Source: Blastomussa wellsi
Lineage: Eukaryota > Cnidaria > Anthozoa > Scleractinia > Plerogyridae
DNA length: 64,000 nt
Direction of reading: 5' to 3'
NCBI GenBank assembly: GCA_947652115.1
Contig: OX393562.1
Span: forward strand, 17,217,934 to 17,281,933
Under the pieces are notes generated by a model. It was not told the origin of the DNA. It saw nothing but the letters and a program-made list of their open reading frames with translations, and did not search any database. Both the position numbers and the translations under genes were made by a program. Positions within the stretch are counted from its first letter, which is position 1. Every line of letters starts with the position of its first letter. This document shows, piece by piece, positions 3,201 through 53,192 of the stretch.

Positions 3201-6200
3201 GATGACAATAAAATTAGTTATGTCGAGAATCACTTAATCGAGAAGGAAGAGGTTAATGAGCACTTTGGATATTTTCAGTATGTGATGGATTCTCTTGGCC
3301 TTCCAAAGCCTACAAACTGGAGAGAAGCCTTGCAACTGTATCACAAACTGGTGTCTGTGTCAGCATCAGGTGCATGATCTATTATCCAAGAAGTAGATAA
3401 CTCTAACCGATATCTGACATTACTTGATCATAATTTGAGTTTTTTGAAAGCTGATTCCCTGAAAACTACTTTTCTACACCTAAGCATGATTTGTCAACAA
3501 CTTGCAGAAATACTCAGTTGTTTGTTTTCCATCCTTTATTCAACAAAAACTGTAAACAGATTCCCCTTGACCAACAGTAGTTGTTCATACTACATTTAAA
3601 ATACTTATTACTTATAAAAATATCAATTGACCCCTTGGAGCAGTGCATGATGTTACCTTGTTCTGGGATGGTCTTGAACTTTACAAATACCAGAATTACA
3701 GAAAGTATGATAATGTTATTAACTTAAGACAGCCACCAAAGTGTCTCTGTGAAAGAAGCTCATGATTAGAAAGTTTTATCATACAAAAATCCTTATAATT
3801 TCAACTGCTACTAGCCTCAATGTTCCCAGTTTTCTGAATACAACTATTAGTTCAGTTTTAGACCTTAACATCGGTGTTAAGTAGATAATTTAGCACACAC
3901 AATCAGCTGCAAAGGGTCTATGGGTAAAAGGAACGTAACATGAGTTTTCTTTTACAAACAAAGAGATACTTCAAAATGCCCTCCTGGCATAAAACACACT
4001 TAACTAGTTCATTAGCAACATGCACAACTTCAAATGTCAGTTCCATGTATACAGACAGATGTGCACCACGCACATATTAAGTATTGCAACAAACATTTTT
4101 TTTTTGAGGCCGAAAGGATTACTTTACAACTTCAACCCACAGAAGTAATAATTTTTCAGTGGCTTCAGATACTTTCACAATGTTAGTTTTTTTGAGGCCA
4201 GAGTCACCTTATTTCGGTTTGAAAACAGGACCTGGTGCACCAGCAAATGAGTTCTGATTGCGCATGTATTGCTTTGAAAATGAAAGGTATCTCAATGTAC
4301 AAGGTTGTGCACCAGGACTCGGAAATGGCTTTCTAAATATATTTTTTATTGCTAGATCAACTCCTTAAAATTGCAAACATGATAATCCACTGCATTGTAG
4401 AATACTATTACATGAATGTCCATTTCTTGGCCTCAAATTTCTTTCCCATTTGTCTTTCGGCGCTAACTTTTCATGGGCATTAGAAAAAGGGTAACATTTT
4501 GCCTCAATGCTATCATTAAGGTTTAGCAAAAGATTGGCCATTGCAAAAAGCAAGGATAAAGAGCTCTTTGAACTTATCAAAAGAGCTCATGTGTACTACA
4601 GGAATGGTTATCTCTTTGCCACATGCCCCTATAGTAGGAAAACATATTGTGTGGTTTGGGTTGTACTTAAAGCAGTCATGATTAAACTGAACAGTGACCT
4701 TAAAGCTTTGACCATCAATTGGCTTGTGTTTTTGTCCAGTTAACCACCCCATAACTCCTGCAACTGTCAGATCAGGCTTTTCAAATGCTTCTGCTCCTTC
4801 TGGAAGTTCATTATCAAGGCTGCCATCTCTATAGTTCCATGCAACCGCTGCAGCATGACCCTCAACAGTGCCATCTTCGAACAAATTTAGGCAGTCCTGG
4901 AAATGATCCATCACATTTTCCTCAATTTGTCTTCTTGTAGACCAAGCTGATGAGTATTGTGGATCCATTAGCGAGAACAAATAGTTGGCATCAGGTGTCA
5001 GCTGCTCCTTTAAGACCCCATTAACAAACAGTGGCTGGCACACAGATGGGTGACTTTGTATCAACTCTGCTAAACCATATGAAGACATTCCCATAAGGAA
5101 TTCTTTCATGTACAATGACCGGCGATTAACAAGGCTGACTTTCAGAGATCTTAAAATTTCATCAATATGGTTTTCATCCACAACACCAGTGTATCCGTGC
5201 TCATAAATTATCTCACTGAAGTTCTTACAGTTTTCTCTAACATCCTTTAGAAGTTGTTGTTCCTTGGTTGTAAGATCAGTATCTTGAATGTTTGTCATGT
5301 CAACACTTTTTGTCATTGCCTCGTATGAACACTGTTCAAGGAAACATGGAGGAGGTCCTCCTTGGGCCAAAGAGACTGCAACAATCTCACCACAGGTGCG
5401 AAAGTTACTATTTTGAACATGGTAAGTGGAGTCTGCAGGACTTCCATTGGGGAACATTTCCTTTCCCATTGCACAAATTACTTCTCCTAAGAATTCTTGC
5501 GACATGGCCCCCGTATCAATACCAGCCTCACCATTGTAATGCACCCTTAATACACTTGTGGGCGAAGTTTTTTTGGTCTGCCTTTGCCATAACGCAAGTG
5601 TTCTTGTGAGTGGTGCACATCGACGCGATACCAGAAAAAACTCTTCATTTTGATCTACTTTTTCTGAAAGCATTTTAACAATCTGGCATGGATCTGTGAC
5701 AGAAAAGTCGTTGAAATCTTCAAACACCTTGCTGGTATTTGCCCAATCTTGCAACTCCGGGATGTTCAGTTGGCCATGTGGTGAGTCATAGGGTAAGGCT
5801 ACTGTAAGAGCACTTACTGATGCTGACTGAAAGTCATCAGTCATAGAACCCAGTTCCACTGTGGTGACTCTTTCTGGTGAACTTTCATACTCAGTGGGTG
5901 TTTTAAAAGAACTTGGTTCCACTATGGTGACTTTTCCTGGTGACCTTTTAGACTCGTTCATTCCTTCGGCAGACCTCAGTTCCATTTTGGGGACGTCTCC
6001 TGGTGAACTTTCAAACCCAGTGACTGTTTTGGAAGAACTTGATTCCACTTCGGTGAGATTATCATCTTCTGACATTTCAAAATCAGCTGTTGTGCACAGG
6101 TACATAGTAATTCTCTTATAGTCTCTACCAAGTTCAGTCTTGTATTTTTCAAGTTGAAAATCTTCCTCTTCCCCTGGAAGGCAGATTGCATGGCTTCCAT

Positions 6201-9200
6201 CTTCATACAGAAGAAAGTAGTCTTCTTCATGATCAAACTTTCTATCAAATGCCTGCCACTTTTCTATCCCTTTGGATAATATTTTGACATAGCCTGCTGA
6301 TTTTGGCACTTGAATAGGGAGTCGCTTGCCCCAAATTGGTTTTAAGTCATTTCCATTAAATCTCATAAGACCAATGTTGATGGTTACCACTTCATCAGGG
6401 TCTATTTTTTTCTTTTTGGGACGGAATTTTGAGCCAGATTGCTGCTGCTTCTTTTTACAAGCCATGTAACTCTCAAATGATTTTGTTTTTGGCTTTTCTT
6501 GTTGTAGAACAGGCTTCCCAAAGGACATTTTTAGACCACTTGTACATGCTTCTTGACCAGACAAATGACACTGGACTGGTGAACCACACTTCCAGCAGTA
6601 CTTTGCATCACATTTTAGTTTTGCAGAACAGAAAGTACAAAACCTAGGAAGTAGGCAATACATTGCTGTTTACCATACAACAACAAAGAAGACATAGTAA
6701 ATGTAACACTTTGATATAAGGAAGGTGCAAATGACTATCCAAGGTGTATAACAAAACGCTCTACAAGTGTGTTGAACAACAGGAAATGGCAAAAGAAAAA
6801 AACTTTATAAACGAAAAACATCACGCTACGTACCCAACAATCCAACACATTAACTTAAAACATAAGACTTAACAAAATACAAAATAATACCACGTACGTA
6901 CGGGAGCAGCAGCAACTATGAAAGATTTAAGAATTGTTTCATGCTTAGCGTGCGTATATCGAGTTATGGATGCACGCGGGAAGTTAGGAGAGCACGAGAG
7001 AAGCGTAAGAGTTGCTCGAGGCGCAGCCGAGAGCAACTCTAGCTTCTTGAGTGCTCTCCTAACTTCCCAAGTGCATCCATAACTCGATATACGCACAGCT
7101 AAAAGCATGAAACAATTCTTTTATAACATACGACAACAAGTTGGGGGCTGAAAGATGTTTTACTCTTTTGATTGATTACAAAGTTCTCAAAATGCGCTAC
7201 AAAGGATCTAATTGGCTGGTTAAAAACACGCCACAGTCACTTGATCGACAGTTGAACGGAACGCTTCATCTGGCTTCATCTAATAGTTTCTAAAAACTGT
7301 CTCTCAATGAATGGAAAAGTCGTGGAAAGTAAGTGAACTTTTTAAACGAAGTCAAACGCCTTCATGAAAATGCAGCCAAACAAGTTAAAGTACTTAATCT
7401 TTAGTAAACACGTTCGGTGGGCAAAAGTCAAAGACGAGAAGAAGCGGGATTTGAATTGTTGAAAACGATGTTCACATTGCCGTGTATAGTACAATTAGTG
7501 CCGAAGACGGACTCCAGGAAATTTGCATTCTTGTCGTGGGCCACCAAACTGTTTTTTTGACGGACTGTGGTACCGGTGGAAGAGCACTCGGTTGTTCCGT
7601 TGACAAGGCTGTTCGACAGGACCTCACTGCAACTGCGAAGCTGTGAAGTGGATGGGTGCGTGTTGTAATGAGCAAGGCTTTGCTCATTTCTGTGACCGGA
7701 GATCGCCATAATGTGCCTGTTTGGGATTCCTGCATTAGACCACAAAGTTATGGCTGTCGCCCTGACGCTATGGTTGGTGTAGAGCTTCGACAAGGATGCT
7801 GCTTCGCTGATGTTTTTCATCATGGAGTCGAGCGAGTTCACTCCGACTGGACGCGCTTCATACCAGATGTTGTCGTCGAAACTCCAGTTCTTTCTTGGAT
7901 ATTGGAAAAACGACTCGCTCTTCGGGTTTAATTTTGACAAGTACAATTTCAAGGCCTTGTAGCCGTCGTTCACTTCGTCTGTTTCATACATTCGGGCCAA
8001 CTTTTCGGTGCTGGAAACGTCGGCAATTCCACCGGGATGGTTTTTGGTAGCTTCATCATGCGCCATCGTCGCGTAGTTGCGACCAGTTGGGTCCACTTCA
8101 AACTTGAAGCTGGTCGTTTTCAAGGTCCTCTGACCCTCTCGACCTCTTCTACAAAAGAAGAGGACAATGTGGAACCACACGTTACGGAGAAGAGAAAGTG
8201 GGTTGCTCAAGGCGAGAACTTGCGAGGATTTTAGCCGCAGCAAATCTTCGTTTTCAATCGCCGGTTTGTGTTTTACGTTTTCTTTTCCCTGACGCTTCAA
8301 GCTGACAACTGTCGCATTCAGCATTTCGTTTGACCTTTTAAATCTTGGGTCAGAAGTGAGCTTCAGGCCTTTGTTTAGTGGCGGTGTATTCAGATATCTT
8401 TCAATGCCGTGACGAAATCCAAGGAGCGTAGATTTGCTGTACACATCTCCGGATTTATTTCTGGCCTCTGCGTAGAATCTGCGAAGGTTTGTATCTAGTT
8501 GACCAAGCGACATTTGTTCTAGCGGTGTCTGTATTTTTTTCTCACTACACCAAGCTAAATTCAGAAAGGAAATAATGGTAATACCATTTAGAATTCAGCT
8601 TTGTAGTTCGAAGATCACAGGCTGAAATAATAAAAGACTATGAAGGGTCCGTTCAGTACGCTCTGAAAGGTTGTTCAACTTGTTGTTTAGCCATTTCACT
8701 TGGTTGTTTACGATTATAATTTTCGGTAGTTATATTTCACTACCCTCTTAGATTTTCTGTGATTAGATTTATATCCGTGTCGAAACAGGATTGACTTTCA
8801 AATAGGACATCCAATATACTCACATGAAATCTCGATCTTCCTCTTCCGCCATCTTGGATCAGGTCAATTGGCGGGAAACTGAAGACAGAGAGGGACTGGA
8901 AGCGATAAAACGTTTGTTTTGCCGTGGAAAAGTAAGTTTTGCCGTGAGAAAGTAAGTTTTGCCGTGGAAAAGTAAGTTTTGCCGTGGAAAAGTAAGTTTT
9001 GCCGTGGAAAAGTAAGTTTTGCCGCGGAAAAGTATGTTTTGCCGTGGAAAAGTATGTTTTGCCGTGGAAAAGTATGTTTTGCCGTGGAAAAGTATGTTTT
9101 GCCGTGGAAAAGTATGTTTTGCCGTGGCAGATATGGGCCACCGTAGAAAGTATTCGATATCTCTCGTTATATTTGGCACAATTGGATGATTCAAACGCTG

Positions 9201-12200
9201 AAACAGTCCAAATTTACAGAAAGAGTGTATTATCGAAGTTCTTTAGATGCGCTGTTAACATTCATTCAATTTTTGACAGGCAAAAGTTTGCTCTCGGCAC
9301 GCGCTGGTACGGTGGCCCATATCTGCCACGGCAAAACATACTTTTCCACGGCAAAACATACTTTTCCACGGCAAAACATACTTTTCCACGGCAAAACTTA
9401 CTTTTCCACGGCAAAACTTACTTTTCCACGGCAAAACTTACTTTTCCACGGCAAAACTTACTTTTCCACGGCAAAGCTTACTTTCTCACGGCAAAACTTA
9501 CTTTTCCACGGCAAAAACGGCGAAGGGACTGGAACTGAATTTAAAAAGAATCAAGATGGCGACGGCTCATAGTCAGCAAAGCGAAGACGAGGATGAAGAT
9601 GATACGGAAGAGGTACTAATAAAATATTATTTTTATCGTGGATATCAATACAAAGATGTCTTAGATTTTCTATCAACTTAAGGACATCCAATATACTCAC
9701 ATGAAATCTCGATCTTCCTCTTCCGCCATCTTGGATCAGGTCAATTGGCGGGAAACTGAAGACAGAGAGGGACTGGAAGTGATAAAACGTTTGTTTTGCC
9801 GTGGAAAAGTAAGTTTTGCCGTGGAAAAGTAAGTTTTGCCGTGGAAAAGTAAGTTTTGCCGTGGAAAAGTAAGTTTTGCCGTGGAAAAGTAAGTTTTGCC
9901 GTGGAAAAGTAAGTTTTGCCGTGGAAAAGTAAGTTTTGCCGTGGAAAAGTAAGTTTTGCCGTGAGAAAGTATGTTTTGCCGTGGAAAAGTATGTTTTGCC
10001 GTGGAAAAGTATGTTTTGCCGTGGAAAAGTATGTTTTGCCGTGGAAAAGTATGTTTTGCCGTGGCAGATATGGGCCACCGTACGCTGGTGAGACAATTGA
10101 AAAAGCTCTTTGAAATTTTACGGCATGCCGGCGAGCTTTGAAAAGTATTCGATATCTCTCGTTATATTTGGCACAATTGGATGATTCAAACGCTGAAACA
10201 GTCCAAATTTACAGAAAGAGTGTATTATCGAAGTTCTTAAGATGCGCTGTTAACATTCATTCAATTTTTGACAGGGAAAAGTTTGCTCTCGGCACGCGCT
10301 GGTGAGACAATTGAAAAAGCTCTTTGAAATTTTACGGCATGCCGGCGAGCTTTGTAAAGTATTCGATATCTCTCGTTTGGAGCCACCACTTCTGTAAAAG
10401 TCATGACTGTGACGAACGTTCAGCAAGCGAACTGAACTGAAATGAACTGAACTGTTTTGTTTTGTGTGTTATTATTTACTGATCGTTTAAATTCAATTAT
10501 CGTTTCATTGTTCATTCTTTTAATCATTTATCAGAACGCATTCGATCATGTGATTAGCCGCCTATCTTGTTTAAAGCTTGTTGCTTACATAATCTCTGGA
10601 GTATCACATATCGGAGCGTCGGAGTAAGTTGTCGGAGTATATTCATCTAGGAGTTTTCTATCGGAGTTATTGGAGTTTTCGGAGTAACTGGAGTTACCTT
10701 CTCACGGAGTTTCTTTTACCCCTTTTACGCAGGATCAAACGTGAGTTTCCATTGTACATATTAATCACCTTTTTTATCGTTACATTCATTTGTAATTTCC
10801 ATAGAATCATTTCTGATTACGCAATCATAAATTTCCTTTTAGTTTTCACCGCATTGTAACACGTTGTACTCAATAAAAAACTGGAATGAGACAGATGTGT
10901 ATATGTGGTTGACACTCAACGTAATCCCAACACTTGGGTACGCGACAGTGAAAAGTTTGATCGACGAATGGAGGTAAGCCGTAACTAGTTTAACGCGGAG
11001 CATAAGCGTATCAACAATGGCATGCCGAGGTGACGAGCCGCCGAATACCGGCGAAACCAAGGAGCCAGGAGCTAGGAGTAAACGAACAATAAAACTCACA
11101 CCGAAGGCCTTACAAAACGCCATAGAAGATAAACGCCATGAAATAGTTAAATCACGTAGAAAGCTCCTGAATGTTATGCAATCAGTCGAGGAGCTAAATG
11201 ACGACAGCGAGATCGAGGCCGAAGCGCGTGACCTCGCGGTCGCCTCCGAAGAGTTTGGAAATTTACTGAGGGAGTTACTCGACCTCTACGAACAAAATAA
11301 ACAAGGAGAGTACGTAGAAGGGGCTCGACTTACCGATGAAAACCAGATCCTAGAACGAGCACTCCTACTTGTAGAGAGGTTAAAGAATAGAATTAGTAGA
11401 CAATCCAGCAAATTGTTGGAAATACGATCTGTGTCTTCTCGTCATTCATCGCGCCGTTCATCAACCTCAAAAACTAGTAGCACCATCGCTAGATTGCAAG
11501 CGTTAGCCGACGCTAAAGCGGCGAAGGAAGAAGCCCAGTACACGCGGCTAATAGCGCAAAAGGAGCTTGAGCGCAGGACGCGCGACGCAGAAGCAGAAAG
11601 AATTCGTAAACAAGAGATTGCACAGTTTGAGTCCGAAATAGCGATCTTAGGAGCAGATAAAAAGGCAGCGATAGCGGACGCCAAGCTTAAAGTGTATGAA
11701 GAAGCCCTATTGGAAGAGAACTTAGAAAAAAAGTTAGAATTGCCGGAGTTTAAAGTTCCCAAAATTAAGACAGAGGAGCGCACCTCACAATGGGTTCACA
11801 CTTCTCCCATGTTTAGCCCTCTACCTGCGGGAAGCTTATCTCGCCGCGAACGCGAACACGACCCGCTAAGCACATCCGAGCAAGCGAAGCCATTATTGCG
11901 TGACACCCAGAAACTAAAGACATCGGAAAGAATAATTCAAGAGCGAAAACCTCCCATCCCAAACCCAGATCTGCCAGACCGGAACTTTACTAACGAAGAT
12001 CGCAGAGTGCATCAAAGCACAGCCTTTAATCGACAACCGCTTACAGCTTCAACCCCTTTCAGGGATATCACCGGAAGCCAGCTGATTGACTCACTCACAG
12101 TCGTAAATCAACAGATAGTAGCAGGTCTGGCTAGGCAAAATCTCCCAAAATGCCAACCTGATGTGTTCTCGGGAGACCCTACACTCTTTCACCCTTGGAG

Positions 12201-15200
12201 AAGTGCCTTCAAAGCTATGCTTATGGATACTGACGTATCCCCGACTCAGGAGATTAACTACTTAAAGAGTTTCACTAGCGGAGCACCGCAGCGATTAGTT
12301 GACAACTACAGGAAGCGACAAATGCACGATCCCGTTGCGTTACTAAGGGACTTATGGGCAGAACTTGAGAAGCGTTTTGGAAGCGCTGCGGTTATCAGCA
12401 ACGCACTGCTAGAGCGCCTGCGGGACACAGCGACATTCAGCGAGTGTGAATACGACAAATTGCAGCAGTTCGCGGATCTCTGTGCGGATATTGAAAGTCA
12501 AGTGACCTTTCTCCCGGGACTCGCATGCCTTAATTACCCGAGCGCTATCCAACCTGTAGCTGAGAAACTACCGCAATCAGTTCGCGCTAAATGGGAGAAA
12601 GAAATCGCGAATTATTCCGACAACCACCGAGGAGTGTACCCCCCTTTCTCCAGATTCTCCAAAACTGTTAAAGAACAAGCCAAGATTAAGAACGATCCAA
12701 ACATCCTCGCTGGTAAAGAAGCGAACCCTTCCCAGGTTCCTCCGCCAAAACAACGCAGAGAACGAGATAAGAAGGCATTCAAGACGGACGTTCGGCCCCC
12801 GGCTGAAAACCAACAAATTCCTGGAAAAGGAAAGAAGGAGGAGCCAGGAAAGAGTGAGATAAAGAGTAAACATTGCCCCTATCACGAAAGCAGCGCACAC
12901 AACCTATCCGAGTGTAAGGCCTTCGCAGCAAAAACGTTGGAGGAACGCACACAGTGGATAATGAACGCTCGCCTGTGCCTTCGCTGTCTCAGCAACGCCC
13001 ATATCGCGAGTGAGTGCGACACACCCATACAGTGCACAATCTGCGGGGACAAGCGCCACAGTGCCTTGCTACACAAGGACAGACGGCCAACCCCCAGACC
13101 GGAGAACGGAGCTGTGAACCCCAAATGCACTACACTCTGCGAGCCAACAGGAGGACTATCCTGTAGCAAGACACTGCTAGTCGATATCTTCAACAAGCGC
13201 ACCCCCCACGTCACGAAGCGCATCTACGCAATCGTTGATGAACAGAGCAACAGCTCCCTCATCACCAGTGAACTAGCGGATGACTTAGGAGCAAGTGGTC
13301 CTTTGGAGAAGTACTTCCTGTCCACGTGCAGCGGCGACCGGGAAGAGAAATACGGGCGGCGATTGACGGGCGTAGCCGTACGTTCTACAAACGGAGCGGA
13401 GTTCACCCTACCTACCCTCACGGAGTGCGACAACATCCCCCAGGACAAGCGTGAGATCCCGACGCCAGCCATGGCGAGGAGGTTCCCGCACCTATCGCTC
13501 ATAGCGAACGAGATACCTCCGTTGGATGACACCGCCGACGTCCACCTGCTTATCGGCCGCGATGCACCAGAGCTACTTAAAGTGAGGGAATCAAGGAATG
13601 GCGCCAGTGGAGCCCCCTGGGCACAACGTCTAGCCCTCGGCTGGACCATCAGTGGCCAGCTCTGTCTCGACTTCCCCAGTGGTCCAGCCCACGTTCTTAC
13701 CCGCCTGACCAGTCTGTCCACCGACACATGGAGAAGGCAAGAAGGTGAAGACAAATGCTACGAATTGGTCCCCTGCCCGAATCAATTCAAAGTCACGGAT
13801 CCCCCCTTGGAACGCGCCGCCGACGGTGTCTTCAAAACCACACAGCACGACAACGAGCCCAGCCTCTCCCTTGAGGACCGCGCCTTTCTGGGGATTATGG
13901 AGAAGGGGATACACAAGAACGCAAGCGGTAACTGGGAAATGCCCCTCCCCTTCCGCGACGAGCACCAGGCCATGCCAAACAACCGCGCCCAAGCCATGCA
14001 GCGCTTGCAAGGGCTCTTGAAGATGTTTATCAGAAAACCGGAGATGAAAACGGACTACTTGGAGTTCATGGGCAAGATAATCGAGAAGGGCCACGCCTCT
14101 CCCGTCCCGCGTGATGAAGCACCGCCTCCCGCTGGCCGTTTCTGGTACCTACCGCACTTCGCGACGTACCATAACACAAAGCGCACCATTCGCGTCGTGT
14201 TTGACTCGAGTTGCGAATTTCAAGGAGTCTCGCTGAACAAAGCGCTTCTACCAGGGCCAGACTTGATGAACAACCTCATCGGTGTTCTAATGCGCTTCCG
14301 AAAGGAGAATGTTGCCGTGATGTGTGACGTGGAGCAAATGTTCCATTCGTTCCATGTCGACCCTAAACACAGAGACTTCCTTCGTTTCCTTTGGTTCGAA
14401 GGAAACGACCCGACAAAACCCATCACGGAGTACCGCATGAACGTCCACCTGTTCGGCAATGGACCGAGCCCCGCAGTTGCCACGTACGGACTCCGCCGAA
14501 CAGCGGTAGATGGCGAGGAGGAGAATGGAGAAGAGACCAAGAATTTCATATGCCGCAACTTTTATGTAGATGATGGCTTAGCTTCGCTGCCAACCGCTGG
14601 ACGTGCGATAAAATTGGTGAAAGGCGCACAAGCCACCCTGGCCACTGCCAAGTTACGACTGCACAAAGTTGTTTCTAACTCCGTTGAAGTCATGGAAGCC
14701 TTCCCAACCGAAGATCGAGGCAAAGATGTGCGTGACTTAGACCTGCGCTGTGACCGTCTACCCGCACAACGGTCACTCGGAGTTTTCTGGGACCTAGAGA
14801 CAGACGCCTTCACCTTCGAAGTGTCCCTGCCAGAAAAACCGTTTACTAGAAGAGGAGTTTTGTCTATTGTCAACTCTGTGTACGACCCGCTCGGTTTCGT
14901 GGTACCCGTCATGCTCGAGGGGAGAAAGATACTTCAGCAGCTGGTACTTATGGGAGAACGGAGAGCTGAGAACAAAACCCCCTTAGCTTGGGACGACCCC
15001 CTTCCCACTGTTATGATGAACAGGTGGACGCGTTGGAGAGACTCTCTCGTCGAACTTCAGCACCTGTCCACTCCCCGCTGCTACCGCCCAAGAGAATTCG
15101 GGACAGTAACCAGAGCCGAACTGCACGCCTTCTCAGATGCTAGTCAGGATGCCATAGGAGTCGCTGTCTACCTCCGCCAGCTGAACGAAGCGAATGAGAT

Positions 15201-18200
15201 CTCGACATCACTTGTCTACGGCCAAGCAAAAGTTGCCCCTGTTACTCCTACAAGCATACCACGACTGGAACTGTGTGGAGCAGTGCTAGCAGTCCAAGCA
15301 GCTCAAAGAGTCCTTAAAGAAATCGACATGGAGATCACTGAGGTGACATACTACACCGATTCAAAGGTGGTACTCGGCTACATCGCGAATGAGAGCCGCC
15401 GATTCTACGTTTACGTGGCCAACCGAGTACAGCAAATCAGGAGCCTGTCTACCCCGGAGCAGTGGAGATACGTGGAGAGTGAGCAGAATCCCGCAGACTT
15501 GGCCACTCGCGGAGTCCCTCCCGACAAGCTGATGGAATCGAGCTGGCTCAAAGGCCCAGAATTCCTTAAGAAACCGGAGAGCACCCTTCAAACAGATGAG
15601 ATGTTCACCCTCAGCACCAGCGATCCCGAGGTTCGCAAAGGAGCGCTCAGCACCAAAGTCACCACTGGTAATGGCAAAGGGAAAGGCCTTGGAGCACCAA
15701 GATTCAAGAGATTCTCTTCCCTTAAGTCTCTGCAGCAAGCAGTTGCCAGGCTTATCGTAGTGGTCAGAGAGTTCAAACGCCGTAGAAAACCCAAAGCAGG
15801 AGGCGTTCATCCCGGAAACGAAGCGCTCAAGGTGCCAGACAAACTCAGACCCTCGACAGTGACCTGGATCCTGCGAACTGGGAACAGACCCCCGACAGTT
15901 GAAGAACGAGATCAAGCTCTACGAGTCATAATCAGTACCACACAGAGAGAAGCATTCGGCGAATTGTTGCAAGATGCCAGAACGGAACCCGAGCTACCCA
16001 GAGAAGCACAGCAAAGCGTAAAGAAATCCCTCAAAGGTTCACGGCTGTATCACCTCGACCCGTTTCTTGACGCCTACGGGATCCTGCGAGTAAGGGGTAG
16101 ATTAAGGAGAGCGGAGATGGAGTATGGAGAGAAACACCCAGTTGTGTTACCGAAGAATCATCATGCGTCGCAGTTGGTCGCAAAGCATTACCACGCCCAA
16201 GTACACCACCAAGGGCGACTGATCACAGGAGGAGCCATTCGTCAAGCAGGATTCTGGCTCATCGGAGGCCACGATACAGTAACCAAAGTCATCAGTGCCT
16301 GCGTTCCCTGCAAGAAGCTAAGAGGACCACCGTTAGAGCAGGGCATGGCAGACCTACCACAAGATAGAACTGAGGTCTGTCCTCCCTTCACGAACGTCGG
16401 CTTCGATGTGTTCGGCCCCTGGATGGTGCAAACACGCAAAACCAGAGGAGGAGCTGCAAATGCCAAACGCTGGGGTCTGGTGTTCACGTGTCTTAGCAGT
16501 AGGGCCATACACATAGAGGTCCTGGAAGCGATGGATACCAGTGCCTTTATCTGCGCACTAAGAAGATTCTTCGCACTGCGAGGCCGTGCCAAGCTACTCA
16601 GGTGCGACCGAGGCACCAACTTCATTGGAGCAAAAACAGAGCTCAAAGATGCATCATCAGAGCTCAACGAGGAGAAAGTAAAGAAATTTGTAACGGAGAA
16701 CGGATGCGAATGGGAGCTCAACCCTCCCCACGCATCGCACTTTGGCGGAGTCTGGGAAAGGCAAATCAACACCATCAGACGAGTACTGGACGCCATGTTC
16801 GCTGAACTGGGCAGGACTCAGCTGACGCACGAGCTACTTATCACGCTGATGGCTGAAGTAGTGGCGATCGTCAACGCAAGACCGATATCTGCACTACCAT
16901 CTGATCCTGACGATCCACGACCCCTGTCCCCTGCTATGCTGCTGACGATGAAGACGCGCCCAGCTGGACCTCCCCCAGGTCAGTTCTTACAGCCTGACCT
17001 CTATGTACGCCGTCGGTGGAGGCGAGTACAGTACCTAGCCGACCAATTTTGGACAAGGTGGCGTCGCGAGTACCTGCAGAGTTTACAGCCCAGACCAAAG
17101 TGGACGGCGACTCGGAGAAATCTACGCGTAGGAGACATCGTTCTCTTGCGAGACGACGCCCAACACCGCAACAACTGGCCACTGGGACGAGTAACGGAAG
17201 CGATAGAGAGTGAGGACGGGAGAGTCAGGAAAGCCAACGTTGAAATTGCCAGAGACGGAGAAAAGAAGGTCTACTTACGGCCTATAAAGGAACTCATCCT
17301 GTTGCTGCCAAACAACGGAGCAGACGATGCAGATCCAAGCCCAACATAGACCATGTGTACCAAGTAGCAAGGATTAACCTCGTAATCCTTGGGCGAGGAG
17401 TGTGACGAACGTTCAGCAAGCGAACTGAACTGAAATGAACTGAACTGTTTTGTTTTGTGTGTTATTATTTACTGATCGTTTAAATTCAATTATCGTTTCA
17501 TTGTTCATTCTTTTAATCATTTATCAGAACGCATTCGATCATGTGATTAGCCGCCTATCTTGTTTAAAGCTTGTTGCTTACATAATCTCTGGAGTATCAC
17601 ATATCGGAGCGTCGGAGTAAGTTGTCGGAGTATATTCATCTAGGAGTTTTCTATCGGAGTTATTGGAGTTTTCGGAGTAACTGGAGTTACCTTCTCACGG
17701 AGTTTCTTTTACCCCTTTTACGCAGGATCAAACGTGAGTTTCCATTGTACATATTAATCACCTTTTTTATCGTTACATTCATTTGTAATTTCCATAGAAT
17801 CATTTCTGATTACGCAATCATAAATTTCCTTTTAGTTTTCACCGCATTGTAACACGTTGTACTCAATAAAAAACTGGAATGAGACAGATGTGTATATGTG
17901 GTTGACACTCAACGTAATCCCAACACTTGGGTACGCGACAATGACCAACATTGTGTTTCTTATCATAAACTTTACGATAGCCATTTCCCTCCCAGCTCCC
18001 TTTTGCGAATGTTCGGTTGATTTGTAAAATACATGTAGAATACAGCCGTCGTCTTCGCTCATCTTTCTTCAGAGTATGAATTATATAGTTTACAAATCAG
18101 TAAAATGCGAATAACTTTTTCGTCTTCTAATGCTTAGAAACATTATCAGTTTTTGCATTTGTGTGTTTTGTTTTTAAGAGTTCGATTGGCCACGCTGTCG

Positions 18201-42748: not shown

Positions 42749-44910
42749 GGAAGAAATCATTAAACAAAACACTGATCTATAAATCTTTTAAAAGTAAAAC
42801 GATGCCTATGGCGTGCACTAGATAACATTGAGTAGATTTTCACTCTGATGATGGACATTGCAAATGAGACGGAACGAGACGGAAGGAAGCTGGGCGTGAT
42901 GATTTTAACGAATAACGAAAAACCAACAAGAGGCCCCAAGGTGACAAATATGTCGTTTATAGTTCCACTCCCTGGTTCATATTATTTTAGATCATGATGT
43001 TTTTAACATTTTTAATATTCCATCAACTTTATTTTAGCTATTTACTTTTTACTTGTATTATAATACTTAATTGTGATATTGCTGTGCGGGGAAGAAAGGT
43101 GTGGTTGATTTTTCAATGCTCCTCCACCAGCTGTAAGTTACAACTACAGATGTTTCAAGAAAACGTTCGCAAGTTACATAAGTTTATACTCTTTATATCA
43201 CCAGCTGAATTCATTTCTGATTTATCTTACATTAAATGTGACACGATAGGAAGAAAAATATTGCGCCTCGCATTGCATATTGAAGTAGCGCGCACATGTA
43301 TCATGTATCATCGATGTAGGTTCTTTTTATGATATCATCGGCCTCAGAGAATTTCAGTTTATTTAATTTGCTGGTTTAGTCTGCCGGCTTTAGGGCTGCT
43401 CATAAAGCGGTAGGGTAGCAGCTCTCGTATGCTTGTAATTCTACTGGCAGCAGTTTCTATTGTGTTAGGGGCTAGGGGCATTGTTCCTGTTGTTTGTTCT
43501 GTTGTCTCAATGCGTCGCAAGCCATTCATGTGAGACCTTACGAGGGCTGCTACCTCGCATAAAGAAGGATCAGATCGGACAAGTTGTTGACGATGGAAAA
43601 TGGTACGTATCGGCCAAAACCTTACAATAAAGACACTGTACCAAAAGCGAAAAAGATATACGTTTCGGTGCAAGTTAGTTATCTAACAGACATGGAGACA
43701 AAGTACAACATAAATTCAAGGAACACGAAACTTAGATGCTTTAAAATTTGGGACAAAGTACATTAGTATGACTTTCTTTGTAGTCAAAGCTTACATGTTT
43801 ACTCACCGATTCCTTCATCGAAGCGTTAGAAACTGCACTACTGGTTTCATTACGGTTTAATTTTTCCTGGCAACTTGAAATTTCCTGTTTGGTGTTGGCG
43901 CTAGATGCTTGGACCTGATTTATATATTTTTGTTTCTTGCACTTCTGTCATTCAAATGGCACTTCAAGTTCAAATGAATACATTAAACTCATTGCGACGC
44001 GTCTTAATAAGTGTGTGCTTGACATATATCACGTAAAATCTGATTGCTTTTGTCAACAATATATTTGACCGTCAGACGCCTTTTTCCTGCGCAAAGAATT
44101 TGTCGGCGAATGTATTTTAATTAAACGCAGCCCAACATGGGAATCTAAAATTAGTGATGTAAAACATTTTTTCTTCCATTCAATATTTACAAGAAGAAGT
44201 TTGCCACAACTTTGTCCAAAATAACTTGTGAAGAGTTTTCTCATCGCGTAGAATGGCCGGACATCATTACTTATTCATGAGCACTGAAGCGGGAAAATTT
44301 GAATGCGAATGCACTTTGAATAGCCGAGAATAAGAGAGAAACGGCCCTAATTTGCCTGCAGGGCATTAATAAAACTCGCTCTTTTGACTTTCCCAAGTCG
44401 TATATAATGTTTTAAACAACGGGCTTTTCAAGAGGAAAGCTATATCTACAATTGTAGCCAAAAATTGTGAAGTTTTATGAAGTTTTCGCACTAGCTTCCT
44501 GCGTTTGAAAGTTGGGAAAAAACGGCCTTTTCAGTGGGGACATGTTCCTGGCACGAAGTTAAGAGCAATTTTTTGAGCGAGTGAGACTGGCTTCAAAAAA
44601 GTAAACAACGGCAAATAAAAGTTTGATGTTTTTCTGAACTGCTCCCGTCTTTACTTTTTAAATCGGCTTGAAATAACTACTAGCTAGCTGACATTTAAAA
44701 TTGCTAGTTGGAGTTGCGTTCAAATATGGCGCGTCTTTGCTTAGTGATCCATTGTTCGAAGGACATGGCTGCATAACAATGGCTGTCAAGAAATTACCGT
44801 ATCTTTTCAGAAAAATCACTCAGTCGTTAAATGCGAATCATAGATCAGTAGCCCGCCAACTTTGAAACTCACAATCAGGTGCTTGACGAAGGTTAACGCG
44901 CGAATTTAAG
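42749..44910. other. 2.2-kb stretch without firm genes
   Basis: A frame at 43593-43766 (MENGTYRPKPY...KKIYVSVQVSYLTDMETK) has a receptor-ectodomain-like flavour but is isolated and unsupported. Otherwise this is AT-rich intergenic DNA and the 5' flank of the gene at 44911. Confidence 0.3.
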
Positions 44911-47900
44911 ATGAGCGAGGAAAACAGAAGTGCACTGGATCGGGAGCTCTTTTCAGAGCTCATTGAATCCCCGATCCATCCACTTCTGATCAATATGGTT
45001 CGTCCTTATGTTGACTCCTGTGACCAGAAATTTCGTCTTCAAATAAACGGAGAGGCACTTTGGCATTGGCGAGAAGTCCGCGGAAGGCCCAGCATTGCTT
45101 TTGAAGTTCTACAAGCAAGTATCTCGCATCTTGGATACAAGCTGGAGGAATCCGCGCGCGATCGTGTTGGTCGCGCTATTGCGACGAACATTCGAAATTT
45201 CTGGCGAAAGATCGATGGAATCTCCAACAGTAAAAATAGGAGAAGAGTTCGAGCCAGTAAGTGGGTAACCATGAATTTCATGCCAAATGAGATCATGCTG
45301 TCTCCAAGCGACGTGGTATCGCAGCTCGAGGAGGAAAGTGGACATCTTCGCGAGACTGTGGAAGAAAAAGCAGCGGAACTGTACTGGTCCATGAAGAAAT
45401 CGCTGGCACATAGAGGAAAGGATTTTGTGGATGTTGGTAAAAAACAGCAACAAAGACACTTGGAACAAATTCAGTAGGTGAACTTTATTTTACAAATGGT
45501 CAAAATCAACAATTTGGTTTCTTAGGATACGTATTAAATGTTACTAGCACTGGGAGTTCCTTTTCTATACATTCTCGTTTACAGTACATTACGTTGCATT
45601 GCTTACATCTCCTTTTTAAGACTCATTATTATCTTATTTTACTGTACAGAAAAAAAGCCACAGATGTCCTATGGTTCGCGGAAACGTACGGGTTGATGCC
45701 GGAGTCATTACAGCTGAGGGATAAGGACGGCTCACTTCATGAAGTGAATGTCAGTACAACTGCCACAAACAGCGCTGAAATTCAAGAAAGCTCAAGTTTA
45801 GAGAGTACTGGCCATGGCAAACATAGCCATAAAGGTGAAGTGGCCTGCACATTCACACATAATCTTATATACATTTAAATAATACAAAACTATAGGCAAT
45901 ACCATACCTTTAAAATCATTTTGACCACATTTATATATACACAATCATTATTATTACAATAGTATATACCTTTTGGTCTTATGTTTACTTTAATTTCATT
46001 TAACCAACAGAAAAGAAAAAAGAGGCCTATGACAAATTGCCTGTAACAGAAAAGGAAAAAATCAGAGCTATCCTATTCATCATGGGTAGATTTTCCATTT
46101 CATGGGAAGCATACCATGAGCTAACACAACAAGATGCAGACTTACCAAGATCCTATCTAGTGGAGGGATGCCAAGCTGAAGTGGATTCACATTGGAACAT
46201 CACAAAAACACCAGGAGAGCATCCAGGGGCTGAGTTGCCACTTAGGGAGTTGCTCAAAAAGGAAATACAGGAGCATGTGAGTACAAGAAAAATAAAATGT
46301 ATCAAATATGTTTCAGTAATTATTAGCATCCAACTTTCAAGTGTAAGGGTATTGAGCTGATTTTTACCTTCAATTTTATCTTATTACAGTTAAAGAAGTT
46401 GGACCAGTCAGACCATCAAACTCCAACAGTTAAAGTTAAAATATCAGGTGATGGTGCACGTATGTCCCATTCAAGTTCCTTGTTTGTCTGTTCCTTTTCT
46501 CTCCTGGACCAAGGCCAACAAGTGCTCTCAAGTGCAGGTATGATTACTCTTTTCTCTTTCTCTGACAGTTCAGATAGAAGTGAACTAAATAATTGATTTC
46601 AGAAAATAAATGGAACAACATAGACATATTGACAACTATATAGACTATAAAATCATTCTTCCATTTTTCACTTTTTTCCATTGCAATTCTAGGTAACCAC
46701 ACCATTGCAGTGGTTAAAACGAGTGAAGACCATGACAGTCTTAGCATTGGCCTTGCCAATGTTAGGGAGGCAGTAAATGAGCTGATTTCAGCTGGCTTTA
46801 TGGAAATAAATGGCAAACGAGTGAATTTAAAGTTCTACTTGGGAGGTGACTATAAAGTAAGTGTAATTTATATTGCTTTAACATTATTGGTATTCCCAGA
46901 TTTCATCTGAAACCTATTTCTCATGTCTGTATAGAGCCTACACAAGAAAAGCAGGTGTTCTTGATTTCTGATTTCACTTAGATGTCAAAGGTTACAGATT
47001 CTGTGGTGTTCTCGTAGTTTTGGTGTCTGGTGTCCAGGTTCTTTTGTGTTGAACGTTTTAACATGATAAAGGAAATGTTGAAGGTTTACAGAAATACTAA
47101 TACCCAACTTTCATATTTTATACAGTTTCTGCTTGTGGCAATGGGAATGAAAGGTGCCATTTCCAATAATTCCTGCATATGGTGCTTAATTCACAAAAAA
47201 GACAGGTATATGTAAAGTATTTATGAAGTGCTTTGTCAACTCCTATTATTAATGACCAGTATCAGGGCTGTGCTGTAGCATTCTTAGGTTTTGAACAAAA
47301 TTTACATGCTGAACACCCTGGATTTCAAAGGTTCACAGCCTTAAGTATTATATTATTATTGACAGATTGCATGGTTTGGTCTAAACAAAAATTATTGTTA
47401 TTAATAGCAACAATGTTTCTTTCTGAGTTTGCTAATTTCCTGTTTCTGATGTTAAAGGTGCAACATGCATATTCCTTATTCATTCTATGAGACTAATGAA
47501 ATGAAAAGGAAAATGGGACCTAACTGGTACAAACAGCCTGGGTGTCATAGCCAGCCCTTGTTTGACATTCCACTGGACCGTATTGTAATTGATGAGCTGC
47601 ATCTCATGTTGCGGGTAATGGATAGACTGGAGCAGGGATTAATTCTTGAAGTTGTGGATTGGGACGAGGTAAGTTTTTTAGTCCTTAATATAACACTGAA
47701 TTACAAAGCAATGAAAAGAAAGTATACACAGGGGTGGTATTTCTGACATTAAGGACATGAAACTTGCAAGAGAGTTGCACATCTAACACAATGCTTCTTA
47801 CCAAACTAGGCTGATAACAAAGATAAACCTCCATCACAAAGAAAGACAATCCACTTGGATGCACTCCTGCAGGCCGTACGGTCCCTTGGGATAACGCTTA

Positions 47901-49140
47901 ACATATGGAAAGGAAAAGAAACAAAGAAACTTGAATGGACCTCTTTACTGGGTGCTGAAAAGCGTTCACTTTTACGAAAACTTCCTGGTCATTTTGGCAA
48001 GTTTCTTCCAGTAGAAAGAGTTCAAACTGTCAAACAGCTGTGGACAGTAAGTGTTGATAAAGTTAAGATGCATACATACTCTTTTTACTTGTCAGGGCTC
48101 GAGACTTCAGGAGTAATTCTCGTTTTATTGCTACAGCTTTGTTTCATGATTATAGTCAAATACTAGTAACTCCAGGAAAAAATAGTAAAATGCAAAACAT
48201 GTATGTAAAACTTGATGAACTAATTATTTTTTCTTTAATAGGACTTCCAGGAAATTCTAGACCTTATAAACAAAGACACCTTCACTGATGATGAAGTGAA
48301 TGAATTACAAGACAAGGTCAGTAATGCCAAAAAATATGGTTACTGAAAAAAATAAACTGCTTTATCTTATCTACTCATTAACAATGAGCTTTAATCTAAT
48401 TTTCCAACAGGCTCAGAGATGGGGAAACTCTCTGGCACAAATGGCTGGAAGTGGACCAGGATACCTGGCAGAAAACATAATAACACCATATATTCACATT
48501 ATGGTCTATCATGTGCCAACCATGATACGCAACAATGGGTCATTGAAGTATTTCAGTGGTCAAGGTAATTTTTTCAGATGCAAAATACTTAAACAGACAC
48601 TTTGTTACTTGAAAAAGCAAACCAAAGCTTTTGTCAAAGATTAATAATGGTTTTCAAACCAGTTATTGCTAACTATATTAATTAAAGCATGTGCATTTCT
48701 TACCAGGAGTAGAAAAGAAAAACGATGACTTCAGACGATATTTCCATAGAAAGATCAACCGGTGGGATGCCTGCGCCAGCCTACTTCTTGTGGAGAAGCG
48801 CCAGGAAACCTTGCTGGAACACCTGAGGCAGCCAAGAAAGTACACGAAGAGAGATGAAGCCTTCTGGGTTGATGGTAAAAAAGAGGTGGCAAAGAAATAC
48901 CCTCGAATTTCAGTACCAGTAATATCTGAAGACCCAGTCTCTGATACCCAACCAATTTCCTCTCCTCCTTCAAAAAGAGTACTGGACCAATCAGAGAAAG
49001 AACTGAAAAAGCTGAAAGTCACTGAACTTGTTTGTCTTCTCACAGAGATAGTAGGCTGTCAATTAAATCTCCCAAAAAAGCCACGGAAGCCTGATGTACT
49101 TTCAAAAATTCTTGATGTAGCCATTCCACGAGGCGATTGA
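44911..49140 (+). CDS. RAG1-core-like (Transib/RAG superfamily) DDE protein, 11 exons, 838 residues
   Basis: Exons: 44911-45473, 45650-45834, 46011-46276, 46390-46537, 46693-46856, 47126-47205, 47458-47668, 47810-48046, 48242-48316, 48411-48564, 48707-49140. All have GT-AG ends; the total is 2517 bp and one frame. The N-terminal ~338 residues are not recognised and show no RING. From exon 4 the protein lines up with the RAG1 core: D359 (ISGDG), EDHDSL (399-404), D440 (GGDYK), zinc cysteines C459 and C462, DELH (514-517), zinc histidines H672 and H677, and E697 followed by N and FRR. Spacings D-to-C 19, C-to-C 3, H-to-H 5 and H-to-E 20 equal RAG1 D708/C727/C730/H937/H942/E962. All three catalytic acids are present. 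No RAG2-like gene, terminal repeats or signal heptamer pair is visible. It could be a domesticated host gene or an old transposon gene. Confidence 0.85.
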
Positions 49141-50078
49141 AGAACTGCTCAGTGTTGTCTAGATTCTATCATTCAGTTGAAAATTCAAAAGCAAAGTTAA
49201 TAGGTAATGTTTAATGAATGTTTTGTGAAATTTACAGGGCAACAAAAGTGTGATCGTTTGATTAAGTTCAATTATTATCCAGAAAAACATATAGAATAAT
49301 ACTGTTGTACATATAGACTATTTTACTACCCAGTTTGTTGGGCAGTTAACTTCTTGTAATAAATCATATTTAAAAGAAAACATTGTTTGATTCATTAGTC
49401 ATCAATAATGTTTAATTTCAGTATATATATACTTCAGTCCACAACAAATTTGTGTTAGAAGAAGAAATTGCTGTTTGTTTGACTACAGAACACAGTAAAT
49501 CTGTTTTGAAACAAGAAATTGTTTGTTTCCCTACATAGTATGCAGCAAATCTGTTCACGAAGCACGACTTGTAAATACAACAAATCAATTGAATTTAAAA
49601 GGCAGAATGTTTCGTCTTTTACCGACGAAATTTGTAGGACAGGTCGATTAGGTTAGGTTACTTGGTAAAATACGACATTGGTTACTTACCTAATTGTTTC
49701 TTTTTTCAATTCTTTTCACGTTTGGTTACTTTTACACTGTCGAAAGTTTCCACGAAGAGAAATGAAACCGGTTGCTGGCATCCACGCCATTTTGTCGCCT
49801 AACGCGCATGGCTATGGCAGCAAGAACGCTAGCCAGACATATCGACTAATACGAGAATCGCCTTGGGGAGGAGGGGAGGGTTAGTTTCTCGTGTACTGTG
49901 TTTAGTGGTTTCTTGTTTCTCCACACTGGATATCGTCCCTTTAGGCATAAAAACGGTTGAGGGAGTCAGGGGTGGAGAGTGAAACGCAAGTTTGGTTTGA
50001 TAAGCGTGGTATATATTGGTAATGACTTTTTTATGTTTGGTGGCTTCTAAAGAAGCCGTTGTTTTTCTTCCATTTTCT
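49141..50078. other. Spacer between convergent genes
   Basis: Holds the 3' regions of the RAG1-like gene (plus; AATAAA near 49361) and the chromodomain gene (minus). No other coding signal. Confidence 0.45.
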
Positions 50079-50729
50079 TCATTGAGAAACTGCATGATAG
50101 CTCTTTCTGAATACAATGCGCAGACGCTCGATCGGTCGGGAAACCTTCTGTCCATGTTGATAGAACGCAGGAGACTTTGCGAGCAACAGACGGAAAGTCA
50201 CCTGAATTACACGGCATCGGCTTCCATTGGCGTTGATCGTGCGCTCTGTGTAGGCTGCAAGTCCAGCTCTCTGAAGGTCCTGATCATGGATGTTAATCGG
50301 CTTAGCTCTGAAATCGGCTGGCAGGCTGGGAAACAGGAAACGCACCACGTCGTGTCTTATTTCTATTGATTCTTCGTGTTGGAGAGGAACTTTCATTCCT
50401 CTTTCAAATACGAGCCCAATTCTTTCTCGTGCCTCTTCTACGCGAACTGGATCAGGATCAGGGTTCTCGAAGGCTGCTACTAAGTCTGCCGGCAGATGAT
50501 CTTTCGGCTCCCAGGTGTTTTGGCTGGCACAGTATCCATACCATTTAACCATGTAGCAAGGTCTGCCGTTAAGAATCTTTTTGGCCATGATGCGCTCAGC
50601 TTCGAAGGTGCCAAGAACTTCAGGTTTTCTTTCACATTTACGGCCACGGGGAATCGAAGGCGTCTCAATGGACTTGTAAAATCCTTGAGGCGGGCGAGAA
50701 CGTTTCTCCATGGTCTTTTCGTTTGCCAC
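50079..50729 (-). CDS. Chromodomain protein (CBX/HP1-like chromodomain), single exon
   Basis: A 216-residue frame. After a basic N-terminus comes a chromodomain at about 41-88: TFEAERIMAKKIL, CYMVKWYGY and NTWEPKDHL. The methyl-lysine cage positions are occupied by aromatic residues (Phe, Trp and Tyr in FEAER and KWYGY). Such domains bind methylated histone tails in the nucleus. The C-terminal 125 residues are charged and show neither a chromoshadow domain nor a Polycomb box that I recognise, so it is not a standard HP1 or CBX protein. The single-exon structure would also fit a retrocopy or a domain captured from a chromovirus-type integrase, but no integrase motif is present. Confidence 0.8.
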   Translation of the reverse strand: MANEKTMEKRSRPPQGFYKSIETPSIPRGRKCERKPEVLGTFEAERIMAKKILNGRPCYMVKWYGYCASQNTWEPKDHLPADLVAAFENPDPDPVRVEEARERIGLVFERGMKVPLQHEESIEIRHDVVRFLFPSLPADFRAKPINIHDQDLQRAGLAAYTERTINANGSRCRVIQVTFRLLLAKSPAFYQHGQKVSRPIERLRIVFRKSYHAVSQ

Positions 50730-53192
50730 TCTCAGCTAGAACTGTTTATACTGTATCTGTAGGTTGCCATGGATTTTATAATGACAAATCATGGAACAAA
50801 GGAAGGCCGCAGGATCGAAAAGCGCCAATGGCGTTCAATGTAGACCAGACTACCGAAATTAGCATACCCGAACAAAAGTCATCTTGTTGTTCTTAAACTC
50901 GGTGTCATAGCTTGCAGCTTTTTCACGTTTCTTAGCAAAATGTTCTAGTTAAAGCTTCTCTTTCTTTCGCAACAAAGAAAAGGCACGCGCGCGCTAACTT
51001 TTTCGATCATAAGCTACTCAAGATTCAGGCGAAACAAGTCTATTCATTTTATTTAAAAATCGACATTTAAGTTTTCGTAGGTTCGAATGCCTGTGAAGGC
51101 ACCACATTTGTTGCCGTAGGTTTGGCGGTGGATAAGACTGGCCCTATTCACAAATAGTATGAAGCAGGCCAAACGGCTTTTAAAAATTTCGATCCTGTTA
51201 TAATATTGAACGTTAATACACTTGCTGCCGGTGCGCACTTATTCAGCCATACTGTAAATGTGCGACATTAGGAAACAATAGAATGAACAATAGCTCATGT
51301 GGCCTTTGTCTTTAAGCTCCGCCCTGACAAGTTGATGAGCTAAGCGGTACTCCCAACGGAGCACAGCGCGCGTAGATTTGAACCAATGAGAGTCACTCAG
51401 TTTACGCTTCACCGCTAGTATTACAGATCTATAATTTTTGCCGTACAGTAAGTAAATGTCCCCAAAACAATAGGCATTCTGCGCGATGTATAATTAACGG
51501 AAATGTTTTCATACAAAGAAGAGAGAGTTCAAACTAAGAAAATGAAACATTTTGTTTAACGTCTTCAATTCAACGGACAAGAAAATTAAGCGAAAATTCT
51601 ACACCTATTTTGTGTTTTATAATAATAATTTTCATATTTTTCCCATTAAACTGGATGAATCAAGTTCCTTTGAACTTTGTTATGTTTCCAACAAGACAAG
51701 CCAAAATATCTGAGATAATTTTTAACTCTTAGATAAAAACAGCAGCTGTACTATTATAAGGTCTTATAACATCATAAATTGACAATGTGCCCTCGAGACA
51801 TTTTATTTTTATATTATCCTCTATTTATCAGCGATCGACCATTGTAGGGATCGGATTGACAATTGTCCAAAACACTAAACGATTATAAATCCCTTACTAA
51901 TTACTGTTCTTTAATTTAAAATTTTCGTGTATGTCATCTTACGCTGAATATGAAACCGATGTGATATTGAGATTACGTTCAGAATCAGCTTCTCGGTGCT
52001 GCAAATGGCGATCTTCTGTTTGTCTATCACTTTTGAAAATTTTCTATTAGTTGCTCTGATTCTATACGTATCTCCATTATCATTCAAAAGGAAAAGTTGA
52101 TTTCCTCCATGGAAACGGAAAGTACTGTCAACTAAAAATAGCAATTGTATCGTGATCAAATGAAATATAAAGGTTGACGCATTTTATTTTTTATTTTTAG
52201 ATACTTTCATTTAAAATGTGATATTTTTAATAAAAAGTTTCAAATAATCCCTAGACGTTTAAAGACACTTTTGATATTTCCAAGAAGGGGTTCAGTTAAA
52301 AAAATGAGGAAAAAGGTAATAATAAACATAACCAGGTACAAATTATAAGGCAATACAGTATTCTACATTTAAATCAATTTGAGTAGTCCTTACATTACAG
52401 ATTAGTGACGAATACATGACCCCACAAGTATATCTCGGGGTAATTGACTTTTGATGTTTTCCCAAAACACCGGCTGCTCTATTCCGCTCGCCTTTTTGTT
52501 TTGGTAAGCACACTTACTCCTTCATTATATCTTTTATTGATTTCTCCCGATGATCATTTTGTTTTATTTTTGGTCGACATCGGGCCAAGGGTAGTATGAC
52601 CAGGCATTTGTGTACACACATTTTTATTGGCACAGTTAAGAAAAAACTATACAATGTTTCCATTTCAGCGCATGGTATCGGTTTTCTTTTCCATTACTGA
52701 AGGCAAACGACCCACACGGCCTCTTTGTCATCTAATTACAATTAAAATTCTTTCTGGAAGCGCGCATGTAGTTCCGTTAACAATGAAGTATCTTTTAGCA
52801 AAAAGGTAAATACCGAGAATAAGTGCTACTTTTGGCAAATCTTTAATTGTTGAAGCGCTCGTTAGTTTCCGTTTTTATTAACTAGTCATGAATTATCAAT
52901 TATTGATTTGTTAATTAATCATTAATTATCGCAATTAATCTTTATCAACTCGTTGTTGACAATCAACCAAGTGTTTTAGATTACATTCAAAATGATTTTC
53001 TGGTGTTTGAGTGAATACGAATTGACATCGCGGAATTACTGCAGTGGGAACTGGGTCCGGGGTAGTTGAAGTGCAGTATGGGTACAACTGGGATGATATA
53101 TGTAAGAGGTACTTATCACGCGGTAAGTCATACTAGGTTGACACCTTTCTGTATATACATGATTCATGTGACCCGGGTGAGAATGTTCGTAG
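50730..53192. other. 2.5-kb stretch without genes
   Basis: The 5' flank of the chromodomain gene followed by AT-rich DNA. Only short unsupported frames. Confidence 0.45.

Follow-up and report, generated by a model that had tools for sequence, protein, structure and literature searches.

The question raised by this locus is whether a gene with RAG1-type catalytic residues in a stony coral is a domesticated recombinase or part of a mobile element. It lies in a stretch of 64,000 nucleotides of the Blastomussa wellsi genome (assembly GCA_947652115.1, contig OX393562.1, positions 17,217,934 to 17,281,933 of the forward strand), referred to as the window. An interpretation made from the letters alone, the sequence-only reading, had described a spliced gene at 44911-49140 and proposed a domesticated lineage. 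The gene proved to be real, but these coordinates hold only one of two genes, the whole unit being 44242-51488 (+) with a length of 7,247 bp. A convergent chromodomain gene in the unit had been missed, as had canonical RAG1-like (RAG1L) loci in the same genome. Our results indicate, with a probability of about 0.8, that the unit is a two-gene cut-and-paste transposon, recently mobile and apparently autonomous, encoding a RAG1-type DDE transposase and a chromodomain partner. The defined ends, the copies, the open genes, the register of the key residues, the conserved layout and the small number of amino-acid-changing substitutions were observed directly.

The extent of the element was determined by blastn against fetched genome regions and is the stretch common to all full-length copies, whose flanks differ. 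Searching the genome (367.8 Mb, 124 contigs) with the transposase protein yielded at least 92 matches; 54 of 455 candidates were scored, so that all counts are lower bounds. Exon 1 of the transposase gene occurs with 99% identity at ten or more places on six contigs, the window's own included, and 11 regions of 10 kb were fetched for the copy comparison. In the five other full-length copies, the identity to the window stops 0-8 bases from 44242 and at 51488-51489. These copies (L061, L063, L064, L065, and L066) differ from that in the window by 1, 0, 1, 1, and 0 bases in 7,247, respectively, with both reading frames intact in each of the six full-length copies. Terminal inverted repeats of 14 bp with the consensus CATCGCG(T/C)AGAATG were found at both ends, and the end-motif pattern CATCGCGYAGAATG gave 51 matches genome-wide, compared to none for the reversed control. 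That this element was recently mobile is almost certain.

Further copies have lost internal parts. Positions 46345-47233, comprising exons 4-6, are missing from L057-L059 and likewise from L060, which is additionally truncated on its 5' side, and L062 lacks 48067-48503. The deletion copies L057-L060 (G000:C4, 24.51-24.53 and 26.41-26.42 Mb) have flanks in common, as if located inside a larger duplicated stretch. L067 is a relative with 71-83% identity in the aligned pieces, an internal deletion and related ends of its own (CATAG). Six solo end-motif sites (L068-L073) were also fetched; they agree among themselves in the first 50 bases and are unlike the element beyond the repeat, and in four of the six a short exon-1-like stretch was recognized by eye further in. 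They probably represent another subfamily.

Comparison of the bases flanking each copy points to a 1-bp target site duplication, which is likely but not proven. Single flanking bases are equal at eight of nine independent sites of the window family, namely the window (T/T), L057, L062, L063, and L064 (each C/C), L065 (A/A), L066 (T/T), and L067 (G/G). The one complete sister element, L039, carries G/G, bringing the count to nine of ten sites; a result at least this high has a chance of 1.4e-4 at a base rate of 0.3. Not counted were the truncated L060 as well as L058 and L059 (A/C), whose 3' flank is common with L057. A 5-bp duplication was found at none of the nine independent sites of the window family.

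The transposase gene consists of eleven exons, and splicing its ten introns, all of the GT-AG type, reproduced the 838-codon open frame previously proposed. With splice sites close to the expected junctions, 15,552 variants retain an open frame; the variant adopted here, chosen for having the best donors, has 838 codons. The key residues are D359, D440, C459, C462, D514 (in DELH), H672, H677, and E697. Four spacings claimed to be identical to RAG1, namely D-C 19, C-C 3, H-H 5, and H-E 20, were confirmed against the mouse RAG1 letters from PDB (708/727/730/937/942/962). Among 20,000 composition-shuffled proteins, D-x18-CxxC and HxxxxH-x19-E occurred together in this order in 0.015%. Within the first 336 residues, no Pfam family exceeded its cut-off and just two cysteines precede residue 370, in agreement with the reported lack of a RING domain. 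After residue 500, cysteines are found only at 717, 804, and 812.

Alignments without constraints placed these residues in the RAG1 order suggested earlier. Smith-Waterman comparison with mouse RAG1 at gap penalties of 11/1 gave a score of 97, reached by none of 500 shuffles, with seven of the eight key residues in register; the best score among 89 other open reading frames (ORFs) of at least 200 amino acids was 48. With 9/1, the score was 133 (none of 1000 shuffles as high) and all eight residues were aligned, including D359 with RAG1 D600, while with 10/2 only the C-terminal stretch, residues 661-743, aligned. MAFFT yielded the same register for D440, CxxC, DELH, both histidines, and E697 and placed the first aspartate differently. 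By BLASTP, residues 337-751 matched mouse RAG1 600-1010 with 42 bits (E 2e-8; 78 of 350 positions, or 22%, identical). Most of the RAG1 signal resides in residues 661-712; for residues 330-480 alone, 22 of 1000 shuffles scored as high. In Pfam, RAG1 was the best family (E 5.6e-4 for the whole protein, 9.5e-5 for the C-terminal half) and the only transposase model matched at E up to 10. The transposase matched RAG1 chains in PDB with E 0.015; for comparison, a search with mouse RAG1 detects HzTransib, an accepted relative, with E 0.0029.

The profile comparison with RAG1 advised by the sequence-only reading gave a significant match. A profile of the window transposase and seven sister ORFs (from seven of the 11 sister loci described below, leaving aside the near-duplicates L037 and L041 as well as L045 and L047; hhalign kept six of the eight rows) was aligned with a profile of mouse RAG1 and the RAG1L pieces of the same genome. 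Over 300 columns, hhalign reported a probability of 93.0 and E 3.5e-7 (92.6 on rerun), and 46 controls remained far lower (40 column-shuffled profiles, at most 1.2; reversed, 0.1; five unrelated window ORFs, at most 0.9). Searched against PDB, the transposase family profile retrieved RAG1 first (E 2.8e-4), and 15 of the 16 hits were RAG1; BbRAG1L and HzTransib were absent from its hits at E up to 10. The three catalytic residues, both cysteines, DELH, and the second histidine are kept in nine of nine sister ORFs and the first histidine in eight, with L045 and L047 left out and several of the nine being near-identical. Judged from these alignments, the transposase is very probably, if remotely, homologous to RAG1. 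Weak and short matches of ribosomal protein S4 to the N-terminal half (best E 0.028) were judged to be chance, as was a match on a viral contig (L009, E 0.22) located among phage-like ORFs; scans for sequence patterns in contigs of viruses and prokaryotes gave no confirmed relative.

The second gene lies within the element and is oriented tail to tail relative to the transposase gene. Its protein matched Pfam Chromo (E 4.1e-10), with nothing else in Pfam at E up to 0.01 and no kelch or PHD match, and CBX, HP1, and LHP1 chromodomain chains in PDB (best E 6.9e-10). The positions that we take to be the three aromatic cage positions of HP1 are occupied by F, W, and Y, as seen by eye in the alignment. 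Single-sequence AlphaFold models of this ORF and of exon 1 were too poor to use (predicted local distance difference test values of 32 and 49, respectively). Between the window element and L067, substitutions are mostly silent in both genes: proportions of amino-acid-changing and silent differences were 0.15 and 0.79 for the chromodomain gene (pN and pS), and the corresponding rate ratio (dN/dS) for the transposase was 0.11 in exon 11, 0.26 in exon 10, and 0.37 in part of exon 1.

The pairing of the two genes extends to a sister family (L037-L047) with intronless transposases 31-39% identical to that of the window, some of its copies being about 99% alike, and with ends CATTGCCAGAAAT (CATTGCC) where seen. 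The 11 loci examined were cut out from the genome search, which listed more sister matches, and are not independent (L037/L038/L039/L041 about 99%, L040/L042 98.6%, and L045/L047 97% alike). A relative of the second gene lies downstream and convergent in nine of the 11 loci, representing five of six lineages, and also in L067; the downstream flank of L042 is masked. Chromodomain pieces of L040, L043, and L045 reached 33-40 bits in Pfam (cut-off 25.1), all starting from profile position 19, and the sister chromodomain gene looks spliced. Separate sister ORFs share the C-terminal domain of the second protein (L044, E 7e-8; L043, 1.5e-5; L040, 1.7e-5), which had no Pfam match in the two tested; in L044, this domain alone was matched and no chromodomain. 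Since the same convergent layout occurs in a family of only 31-39% identity, these data suggest an old pairing maintained by selection. Giant ORFs of 2,164-4,049 amino acids in three sister matches, considered as fusions, turned out to be N-masked stretches.

Canonical RAG1L loci are present in the same genome, with eight matches over the Pfam cut-off at about six places, compared to none in 14 control genomes. L024 includes a RING ORF (E 7.7e-10), and kelch and/or PHD ORFs of the RAG2-like (RAG2L) type stand beside RAG1L at L021 and L024. Several of the matches contain in-frame stops. The window transposase is thus a second, far more diverged RAG1 relative in this genome.

Compared with the known RAG-like (RAGL) elements, i.e., ProtoRAG and TransibSU with RAG1L and RAG2L, the window element has in common the catalytic and zinc residues in RAG1 register, two tail-to-tail genes, and a partner with a histone-reading domain. 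This domain is a PHD finger in RAG2, with specificity for H3K4me3, and in the RAG2L ORFs of this genome; here it is a chromodomain, and the RAGL partner features kelch repeats in addition. Moreover, RAG1 possesses a RING domain that the window transposase lacks, and the RAG1L ORFs of this genome carry a zinc-knuckle-like tail (Pfam zf-CCHC_2, E about 0.003, below cut-off), whereas no CCHC tail was found here. Sea urchin RAG1L genes, paired and unpaired, have been argued to be domesticated (PMC9885083). RAGL pairs were reported from corals and a jellyfish, their ends, where described, starting with CAC and their duplications being 5 bp long (PMC7204232 and PMC9435367); PMC7204232 reported no complete cnidarian RAGL element. 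In contrast, the ends here read CATCGCG (CATAG in L067, CATTGCC in the sister family), with a 1-bp flank match. Transib shares the RAG1-type core and differs in being a single gene with CAC ends and a 5-bp duplication. HzTransib was not among the matches of the window transposase at E up to 10; a RAG1 profile with the window sequence included scores it at 21.6 bits and mouse RAG1 alone at 19.9, a small difference obtained with different programs. The element is therefore a RAG1-like DDE transposon outside the definitions of both Transib and RAGL, with a RAG1-RAG2-like layout and a chromodomain partner.

A mechanism can be proposed from these features. The product of the first gene would be a DDE transposase whose triad is split by a CxxC...HxxxxH zinc insertion, and an RNase H-like core is expected because of the distant homology to RAG1. 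It would bind the 14-bp ends, and its DDE site would cleave there and excise the element, as in RAG1 and Transib biology, followed by reinsertion with a 1-bp or no target duplication. The chromodomain protein may read methylated histone tails and, presumably in a complex with the transposase, guide, limit or regulate it on methylated chromatin. The PHD finger of RAG2 plays a comparable targeting or regulating role in the RAG complex.

Several observations weigh against this interpretation or parts of it. The N-terminal half of the transposase alone shows no significant similarity to RAG1 (126 of 1000 shuffles score as high; domain E 14 with the RAG1/RAG1L profile). The Pfam RAG1 scores (18.6 and 21.1 bits) are under the gathering cut-off of 25, and one of eight family members matched this model at E up to 1. 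As to the duplication, which is based on nine of ten sites, L061 has the unequal flank pair T/G, and the segmentally duplicated L058 and L059, set aside, have unequal bases as well. Silent sites between the window element and L067 are near saturation, and downstream of L046, where the flank is not masked, no relative of the chromodomain gene was found.

The domesticated RAG1/Transib-like gene of the sequence-only reading would agree with an intact many-exon gene retaining all catalytic residues. It would also agree with a search in the single copy that gave no pair of terminal inverted repeats above chance; that search remained empty because it required a duplication of 3, 4, 5, 6 or 8 bp, and the ends were revealed solely by the comparison of copies. 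Domestication of this locus is refuted by the ten near-identical exon-1 places on six contigs and by the five copies elsewhere in the genome, which have the same ends and differ by 0-1 base; the gene is thus not single-copy. Domestication could hold only for another, fixed copy and is extremely improbable. Less remote, and still unlikely, is that the element is a divergent member of a named superfamily, such as Chapaev/Chapaev3 (in the broad Transib group) or a different CACTA/CMC-like one, and no new lineage. CMC-type transposases do carry CxxC/HxxxxH insertions. In PMC4411706, Chapaev and Chapaev3 are grouped in one superfamily with Transib and TransibSU, as distant members. On the other hand, RAG1 was the sole Pfam transposase model retrieved at E up to 10, and no two-gene element combining RAG1, Transib or another DNA transposon with a chromodomain appeared among the papers listed in literature searches, Repbase and subscription papers being outside the search. 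Chapaev has duplications of 3-4 bp, which differ from the 1-bp match; the family is not proven to be separate from Chapaev-type elements. The motifs resembling GGDYKF and YACxWCK are presumably common in uncharacterised animal and fungal proteins; if so, the family would be widespread and may have a Repbase name. Whether the element represents a separate superfamily of RAG1-related DDE transposons, with CAT ends, a 1-bp duplication and, at the place of RAG2, a convergent gene for a chromodomain protein, is at present evenly balanced.

Regarding the second gene, it could have been captured by chance as a passenger with no role in transposition. Chromodomains tied to DDE-type recombinases are known from other mobile elements, i.e., Maverick and chromovirus Gypsy (PMC10799480). 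Unlike in those integrases, however, the chromodomain of the window element is encoded, together with a C-terminal domain, in a gene distinct from and convergent with that of the transposase. The same position and orientation in nine of 11 sister loci together with that shared domain, a pN far below pS, and an intact second gene in six of six full-length copies make the passenger explanation rather improbable. It is somewhat more likely than not that the chromodomain protein works together with the transposase.

One unsolved question about how V(D)J recombination arose is the way in which a RAG1-type transposase gained a partner that reads chromatin. The two-gene element is another example of such a pair, in which the gene at the corresponding position encodes a different histone reader, and its near-identical copies are suited to direct activity tests. 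It also allows the catalytic and zinc architecture of RAG1 to be compared with that of an element not belonging to Transib or RAGL as defined. If it represents a separate superfamily, a RAG1-type recombinase tail to tail with a histone reader would be an arrangement that is ancestral or has arisen repeatedly, rather than one that originated with RAG2. For the half of V(D)J recombination that is guided by chromatin, there would then be an independent and testable counterpart that was recently mobile.

Table 1. Features of the two-gene element (window positions) and RAG1L loci of the same genome.
Feature	Position	Strand	Basis or remark
Complete two-gene DNA transposon	44242..51488	+	blastn and copy comparison
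Flanking base T, matched by T at 51489 (candidate 1-bp target site duplication)	44241..44241		copy comparison
5' terminal inverted repeat CATCGCGTAGAATG	44242..44255	+	copy comparison
3' terminal inverted repeat CATCGCGCAGAATG	51475..51488	-	13/14 identical to 5' end; copy comparison
Exon 1, GRP motif at residue 58	44911..45473	+	
Exon 2	45650..45834	+	
Exon 3	46011..46276	+	
Exon 4, first catalytic Asp D359 (RAG1 D600)	46390..46537	+	
Exon 5, second catalytic Asp D440 (RAG1 D708)	46693..46856	+	
Exon 6, zinc ligands C459 and C462 (RAG1 C727, C730)	47126..47205	+	
Exon 7, DELH (RAG1 DALH, D792)	47458..47668	+	
Exon 8	47810..48046	+	
Exon 9	48242..48316	+	
Exon 10, zinc ligands H672 and H677 (RAG1 H937, H942)	48411..48564	+	
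Exon 11, catalytic Glu E697 (RAG1 E962) and stop	48707..49140	+	
Second gene, single ORF, 210 aa: HP1/CBX-like chromodomain and C-terminal domain of no assigned fold	50079..50711	-	Pfam, PDB, copies
RAG1L loci L019-L026	G000:C9:15204343-15211171, C1:22843141, C1:10933605-10935397, C1:24.48-24.52 Mb		

Elsewhere in the window, an Integrase-core (rva_4) ORF of 515 amino acids (1830-3377, +), a DUF3504/tyrosine-recombinase-like ORF with a weak QRICH1-type match (7428-8594, -), and an open BEL/Pao-type retroelement polyprotein of 2,123 amino acids (10978-17349, +) were observed.

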